This document shows, piece by piece, positions 45,354 to 46,389 of a stretch of 46,389 nt of DNA. Source of the stretch: Candidatus Neomarinimicrobiota bacterium (GTDB lineage Bacteria; Fidelibacterota; Marinisomatia; Marinisomatales; S15-B10); the NCBI GenBank assembly GCA_012964825.1, contig DTTI01000018.1, positions 1-46,389 of the forward strand, in the 5' to 3' direction. How positions within the stretch are numbered: position 1 is the stretch's first letter; every line of letters starts with the position of its first letter. The notes under the pieces are model-generated. The model had not been told where the DNA came from and ran no database searches. It worked only from the letters and a program-made list of their open reading frames with translations. The translations under genes and the position numbers were made by a program.

Positions 45354-45446
45354 GGGAATGATTGCGAGGCTGGTGCCCGCCACGGTCTTCAAAACCGTCG
45401 TCCCGCCGGAGAGGTGGGAGGTGAGTTCGATTCTCACACGTTCCCG
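45354..45446 (+). tRNA. selC: tRNA-Sec (anticodon TCA)
   Basis: Anticodon stem ACGGT/ACCGT (45382-45386 with 45394-45398) closes loop CTTCAAA, so the anticodon is TCA at 45389-45391. A long variable arm TCCCGCC/GGTGGGA (45401-45407 with 45413-45419, one G-T pair), T-arm GTGAG/CTCAC with TTCGATT, and acceptor GGGAATG/CGTTCCC (one G-T pair) are typical of bacterial Sec tRNA. The eighth acceptor pair is an A-A mismatch, and the D-stem forms six pairs (GCG-GGC with GCCCGC) only if A45367 is bulged. CCA is not encoded (G45446 followed by CT). Its presence implies selenoprotein synthesis; selA, selB and selD are not in the window. Confidence 0.85.
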
Positions 45447-45521
45447 CTAATGGTGTAATTGCCTATATCATAGGAGGTTACAGAAGTAAATCACTGCCAT
45501 ATTCACGCCGTAGCTCATTTT

Positions 45522-46290
45522 TCAAGCGTTCTGAAAAACAGGCTTAGGAGGGCTAATTTGGCACGTATATGGCACAAGCTTTTCCCTTGACTCCTGAGAA
45601 AAGCCCTTTGCATACCGGCCTACAGTGTTGTCCGCTATGAGCGCAATGTCCTCGTAATCTCTTTTGAGGAGATCAACGTAGTGTCGCTCAGTTACGGTAA
45701 CTGTGGAATGACCGAGCCACTTGCTCACCCTGTAGATGTCAACACCGTTCTGAATTAACAGCGCCCCACAGGTTTTGCGCAGTGTATGTATGTTAGCGTC
45801 CTTTATACCCGCCCATTTGTAATACTTTTCGACAATCTTATGGCGTACTTGGTCGCCAGTATAGTCGAAAGGGTGGGAATAATAGCCGCGCCTACTCAGT
45901 ATCTCCAGGAGTAAATCGCTGAGAGGTAGCGCTCTTCGCTTATTTCGCTTTCCAATTAGGACGATTTGCCGTTCGTTAGTGTCAACGTTCACCCACGTGA
46001 ACTTAGGCGGAAGTATCTCAGACCGCCTTGCACCCGTCTGGAGATAGAATGTCAGAAGATAGATCGGCTGCATCAACGTCCTGTGTCATCGCCATAGCCC
46101 TGTAAAGGGATTCAATCTCATCTCCAGTCAGGAACCTGATCGACTTTTCAGGAGTGCTGACGAATTTCACGTTGTTGAACGGCGAAATGGTCAACAGGCT
46201 GGATTTTACAGCCCAATTGAACATCGCCTTGATGTGCTTTAGCTCTGAGTTCAGCCCTGCCTTTGAAAGAAACGTGCCTTTGGGCGTTTT
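45522..46290 (-). pseudogene. Frameshifted, N-terminally truncated tyrosine recombinase (phage-type integrase)
   Basis: The C-terminal frame (45522-46076) carries a complete catalytic set: Arg in TGARRSEIL, Lys in IGKRNKRRALPLS, HTLRKTCG (HxxR), LGHSTV and nucleophile Tyr in ERHYVDL. The upstream part is in another frame (46018-46290): LNSELKHIKAMFNWAVKSSL is a core-binding-domain segment, followed by PFNNVKFVSTPEKSIRFLTG. Removing one base near 46074-46079 would join them as ...AMTQD-LMQPIYLLTFY. The true N-terminus is missing; before residue ~KGTFLSK the frame runs into antisense tRNA-Ser sequence. Non-functional as it stands unless the shift is a sequencing error. Confidence 0.75.
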
Positions 46291-46293
46291 CTC

Positions 46294-46364
46294 TGTTAGG
46301 CGATCACGCTTGGAAAGCGTGTGTGCGTTTACGGGTACCGCGGGTTCGAATCCCGCCCTCTCCG
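46294..46364 (+). tRNA. tRNA-Ser(GGA), 3' part only
   Basis: Anticodon stem CACGC/GCGTG (46305-46309, 46317-46321) around TTGGAAA with anticodon GGA at 46312-46314, then a variable region, T-arm GCGGG-TTCGAAT-CCCGC (46340-46356), and the acceptor 3' strand CCTCTCC (46357-46363) with discriminator G46364. The matching 5' strand GGAGAGG and the left D-arm are absent: the sequence to the left is integrase-like. A typical tRNA-Ser 5' half should begin near 46275. Probably an attachment-site remnant or a junction formed by integration, or an assembly chimera. Confidence 0.8.
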
Positions 46365-46389
46365 CTCTCTTAAGCCCGTCTCCCCGACG

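Follow-up and report, generated by a model that had tools for sequence, protein, structure and literature searches.

Insertion of Islander-class genomic islands into the 3' part of tRNA genes is mediated by tyrosine integrases, with crossover at the anticodon loop, the T loop or the T/acceptor junction (PMC4383910). In such islands, an intact tRNA gene lies next to the 3' end of the integrase gene, 3' tRNA scars occur, and about two thousand anticodon-centred sites have been catalogued (PMC4383910). The anticodon loop and stem are a classic overlap region of tyrosine integrases (PMC8371274). Secondary-site and tandem integration has been described for SGI1 (PMC2297512). Among archaeal viruses and plasmids, the suicidal integrases of the SSV type have their att site within the integrase gene (int), and int(N) and int(C) halves lie at opposite ends of the element; such self-disrupting integrases have been reported from archaea only (PMC8371274).

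The window analysed here (46,389 bp) is the whole of contig C18 of assembly G000 (2.2 Mb, 84 contigs, 97.6% completeness), whose end coincides with position 46389; statements on the whole genome are based on searches across its contigs. As in Islander-class islands, the right end of the window combines an intact tRNA gene (tRNA-Sec, selC) next to an integrase 3' end, insertion in the tRNA 3' part and a 3' tRNA scar, and an anticodon-centred crossover corresponds to one of the subsites described for that class. The locus departs from those islands in its dead integrase, in its unassembled right end and in the position of a scar from a second tRNA gene (Ser) within the integrase. The locus resembles SGI1 in that an integrative element appears off its normal target or beside another element, although we infer this here from a single junction. 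With the SSV-type systems (PMC8371274), it shares the presence of tRNA 3' sequence inside an integrase frame. In contrast to those systems, the att site of the integrase family found in the window lies outside the gene, a complementary N-terminal half was not found and the gene is frameshifted. We consider it likely that the locus is the left end (attL) of an island in selC whose integrase is dead, and that the tRNA-Ser scar of a second element has been joined to the integrase gene.

The tRNA-Sec gene (45354-45447, plus strand; ARAGORN; Rfam RF01852, 63.9 bits) is complete, as had been claimed from an initial reading of the DNA (the earlier note), and is regenerated at the left end of the island. 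Its 3' half and the 7 bases that follow form a 55-bp direct repeat (45400-45454, plus strand), with an exact copy at positions 1-55 of contig C57 of the same assembly. Host DNA resumes at the start of C57, which opens directly with this copy of the 3' end of selC. The repeat may be the core shared by attL and attR, or it could be a k-mer overlap that the assembler made with reads from an empty site: 55 bp is a common assembler k, such an overlap could also place an exact copy of the displaced selC fragment at the start of C57, and C57 could be the branch of an empty-site strain rather than attR. Under either interpretation, the repeat indicates insertion in selC. In the congeners G006 and G007, the site is empty and selC is directly followed by DNA resembling the start of C57 (88-89% identity over 1,555 bp), which indicated that the integrase segment of C18 sits between selC and its normal downstream DNA. 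A tyrosine integrase adjoins and faces the intact selC, in an arrangement identical to that in genomes G197 and G198. Together, the empty site, the C57 copy, the selC-specific integrase clade and the TGGCAC repeats discussed below identify the segment 45400-45576 as the attL of an island in selC whose integrase is dead.

The integrase gene is encoded on the minus strand. In its catalytic domain (45522-46058; PF00589, E=1.8e-17; sharing 71% identity with the selC integrase in G197), the catalytic residues R, K, HxxR, H and Y are all readable (Arg in ARRSE, Lys in GKRNKRR, HTLR, LGHS and Tyr in ERHY). Alignment with intact relatives by tblastn located a break in frame at 46058-46060 (minus strand), where one leucine is aligned twice. 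The core-binding part occupies 46060-46311 (minus strand), with homology stopping at a conserved Lys codon (46309-46311). Relative to an intact relative of 378 amino acids, homology begins at residue 118 and the N-terminal ~117 codons are absent. These results confirmed the earlier description of a minus-strand tyrosine recombinase that has all its catalytic residues and a missing N-terminus. The one-base frameshift also noted at that stage proved to be a frameshift but not a clean one-base change, with about 4 extra bases and a net shift of +1. That the recombinase frame runs on to the window edge is true but uninformative, since homology ends by 46311; a run of ~29 stop-free codons is expected by chance in about a quarter of cases. 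Searches of the G000 assembly did not find the N-terminal half of the integrase, and the window copy was the sole integrase match of this kind in that genome. The viral contigs searched contained neither an integrase relative nor a copy of the tRNA-Ser fragment. For a related integrase fragment, the best named record was a Candidatus Neomarinimicrobiota MAG, which makes that phylum the probable one. Given a frameshift near 46058 and the loss of the N-terminal ~117 residues, the left edge of the mobile genomic island in selC, at this end of the contig, belongs to a decayed rather than a working island.

Relatives of the integrase were sought in 245 genomes of the phylum. The two closest, on G197:C14 (71%) and G198:C19 (63%), are intact and flank selC in the same orientation as in the window, and more distant relatives adjoin tRNA-Phe, Leu, Asn, Asp, Lys or Met. 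In a maximum-likelihood tree, the window integrase and the selC neighbours from G197 and G198 formed a clade (support 97/95), with the integrases at Phe, Leu, Asp, Lys, Met and Asn outside it; by this placement, the window integrase is a member of a selC-specific group. Between selC and int, two direct repeats, TTTGGCAC and TATGGCAC (45557-45575, plus strand), lie 11 bp apart, and TGGCAC pairs with equal spacing are present in G197 and G198 (+112/+123, +123/+134 and +121/+132 from selC across the three loci). These pairs are putative P'-arm integrase-binding sites, and their spacing approximates one helical turn, as would be expected for arm-type sites. The earlier proposal of an attachment site, or of an element that had lost its middle, therefore held for the selC side, where the empty site, the selC-specific integrase clade and the conserved arm-type repeats agree with it. 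This half of the locus is ordinary.

Past the integrase of G197, genes for a sigma factor, a DUF5906 primase, a DUF932 protein, an exonuclease, a methyltransferase and a transposase were observed, a content that points to a genomic island. No virion genes were seen among the proteins scanned from this island, and its selC attR was not found on the contig stretch read. 5'-Truncated integrase tails recur across the phylum (loci L205-L216, for example positions 1636-1842 of L209, on G196:C8 and adjoining selC). Roughly the last 50-120 residues are kept and several tails adjoin tRNA genes, as if islands often retain the att-proximal end of the integrase without a working gene. Since such tails are common beside tRNA genes in the phylum, truncation of the window integrase is not unusual.

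The tRNA-Ser sequence (46305-46364, plus strand) comprises the 3' half of a tRNA-Ser(GGA) gene, beginning with the first base of the anticodon stem and ending at the discriminator; the 5' half is absent. Such a 3' fragment had been noticed before, with a start near 46294; identity with intact genes starts instead at 46305. The fragment is followed by the first 25 bases of a terminator-like flank (46365-46389, plus strand), inside which the contig ends and which also follows tRNA-Ser fragments elsewhere in the family. A full tRNA-Ser at the junction was ruled out, since ARAGORN finds none, and the Rfam matches of the fragment, to sX4 and to a plastid UTR, were below gathering score and due to shared tRNA sequence. 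In the family genomes, a model of the piece and its flank matched tRNA-Ser 3' halves that have the terminator and no 5' half (G005:C11, G009:C29 and G009:C100), as well as sequence behind intact tRNA-Ser genes. All six tRNA-Ser fragments compared had breakpoints at the anticodon stem, no more than about 9 nt upstream of it. This recurrence with a shared breakpoint argues that the piece is the attachment-site scar of another element, which would recombine at the tRNA-Ser anticodon stem-loop and would have cut the integrase. Because it differs at several positions from the tRNA-Ser of G000 itself, the window copy is not a recent local duplicate and probably came from elsewhere. The tRNA-Ser(GGA) of G000 is located at the end of contig C36, with its 5' part and upstream neighbours in place; this context shows synteny to G006:C39, at about 80% over 9 kb, and contains no integrase remnant.

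Other tRNA ends in the family were observed in similar surroundings. On G005:C11 (L042, 12139-14631), an array behind tRNA-Ser(CGA) has three successive boundaries that are tRNA-Ser ends, in the order intact CGA, GGA 3' half and CGA 3' half, each followed by a terminator, a promoter-like TTGA...TTTG sequence and two short direct repeats. The unit of terminator and promoter-like sequence was also found in divergent orientation beside tRNA-Met (L114, 1-200, on G000:C47; L116, 700-1140, on G004:C145) and behind tRNA-Arg in G007:C139.

At the recombination junction, the 7 bp CACGCTT (46305-46311, plus strand) can be read both as integrase codons and as the tRNA-Ser anticodon stem with the start of its loop. 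The integrase relatives read K-x-x-R-L-T at this point and the window K-R-D-R-L-T. Since the conserved Lys of YKxxRL is still encoded, at 46309-46311, the junction is probably located in the anticodon stem-loop, and int probably extends as far as the anticodon stem, so that gene and tRNA have CACGCTT in common. The 7-bp identity between int and tRNA-Ser, which is in part deduced, fits a crossover at this position. In the likely history, a selC-specific tyrosine integrase inserted an island at the 3' end of tRNA-Sec. Its gene, which faces selC as usual, is now dead through a frameshift and loss of its N-terminal ~117 codons, and the tRNA-Ser(GGA) 3' half in place of the N-terminus is probably the attachment-site scar of a second element, brought from elsewhere. 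The simplest way to join this scar to int within CACGCTT would be a secondary-site insertion inside the gene, as known for other islands (PMC2297512); alternatively, a deletion between int and such a tRNA-Ser scar could have brought them together. If recombination occurred in the 7-bp identity, an intact copy of the integrase would read AAGCGTGAT at the junction. We infer both this order of events and the role of a second integrase in making the junction. The right end of the second element was not found.

The earlier note rated a contig-end chimera as an equally likely origin. In a chimera, two unrelated stretches, the integrase and a tRNA-Ser end possibly from another strain, would have been fused during assembly or through a chimeric read. 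The junction indeed lies 85 bp from the contig end, the fragment differs from the tRNA-Ser of G000, and tRNA-Ser 3' ends also occur at the contig ends of C36 and G008:C43. However, the breakpoint coincides with those of five other tRNA-Ser fragments in the family, where a random join would rarely fall, and integrase homology reaches this breakpoint; moreover, long sequence shared with the other contigs examined never spans the junction. A chimera is accordingly less likely than had been held, and we regard it as quite improbable. Resemblance of the fragment and its terminator to the host-side half of an attR could alternatively mean that the fragment is the attR of an island that once occupied the tRNA-Ser gene of the chromosome and was brought together with the selC island through a large deletion or inversion. 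This explanation appears very unlikely: on C36, tRNA-Ser(GGA) retains its 5' part and the neighbours upstream of it, in synteny with G006:C39, the native DNA downstream of selC persists as well, on C57, and the fragment differs in sequence from the tRNA-Ser of G000.

A bacterial integrase of the SSV type, in which an att site inside int leads to splitting of the gene into N and C halves upon integration, would account for a tRNA 3' half inside an integrase frame that stays open through the tRNA; the circular form of the element would then carry an intact int containing CACGCTTGGAAAGCGTG. In the intact relatives, however, the target selC and the arm-type repeats are located past the 3' end of int, and the tRNA-Ser core is absent from the gene. 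The window int bears a second lesion, the frameshift, its N-terminal half was not found in the G000 assembly, and an intact tRNA-Ser(GGA) is present elsewhere in G000, in a conserved context that contains no integrase remnant. The last finding corresponds to an observation that the earlier note had itself named as a refutation. These observations left the bacterial parallel, raised in the earlier note, unsupported; the split integrase was rejected and its probability is negligible.

Arrays in the family genomes contain single genes separated by a conserved repeat of ~72 bp (AGCTTTCTCAACCACTTTCCCAATCTCAACC...GACGGTCGGGATGAAAGAAG), which often lies at contig ends and behind tRNA genes. The repeat has 24 matches in G000, where contigs often end in or near it (C16, C64, C41, C19, C14, C11, C21, C81, C28 and C69; loci L170-L181), and was also found on G005:C11 (L042, 6.2-14.4 kb), G008:C19, G009:C25 and G009:C26. 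One repeat-to-repeat unit is common to G005:C11 and G000:C64, and G008 and G007 have it as well, next to different genes; another stretch showed 97.6% identity between genera. No conserved hairpin or other structure was found in the repeat, nor any match in Rfam at gathering score, in phages or in viral contigs. An integron attC was rejected as its identity, given the lack of conserved structure and of an integron integrase over the cut-off in G000 and G005. A true integron integrase (TIGR02249, 439 bits; G003:C83:12729-13673, L190) occurs in one genome of the same family, which has no match to the repeat.

These arrays look like a cassette system, with single genes and intervening ~72-bp repeats arrayed behind tRNA genes and without an integron integrase. 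If the tRNA-Ser 3' half and terminator were the head of such a mobile gene-cassette system, the junction would represent a cassette in the dead selC integrase. Hints in this direction are the tRNA-Ser 3' halves that head array boundaries on G005:C11 and the repeat-to-repeat unit common to different genera. The window itself contains no copy of the repeat, as C18 stops before one would be reached. We consider this origin of the junction unlikely.

With the tempting claim of a bacterial suicidal integrase removed, the locus has an ordinary reading as stacked tRNA-targeted islands in an uncultured lineage. The analysis describes an integrase clade specific to selC together with its probable arm sites, and the cassette-like array that breaks the G000 assembly may represent a previously undescribed system.
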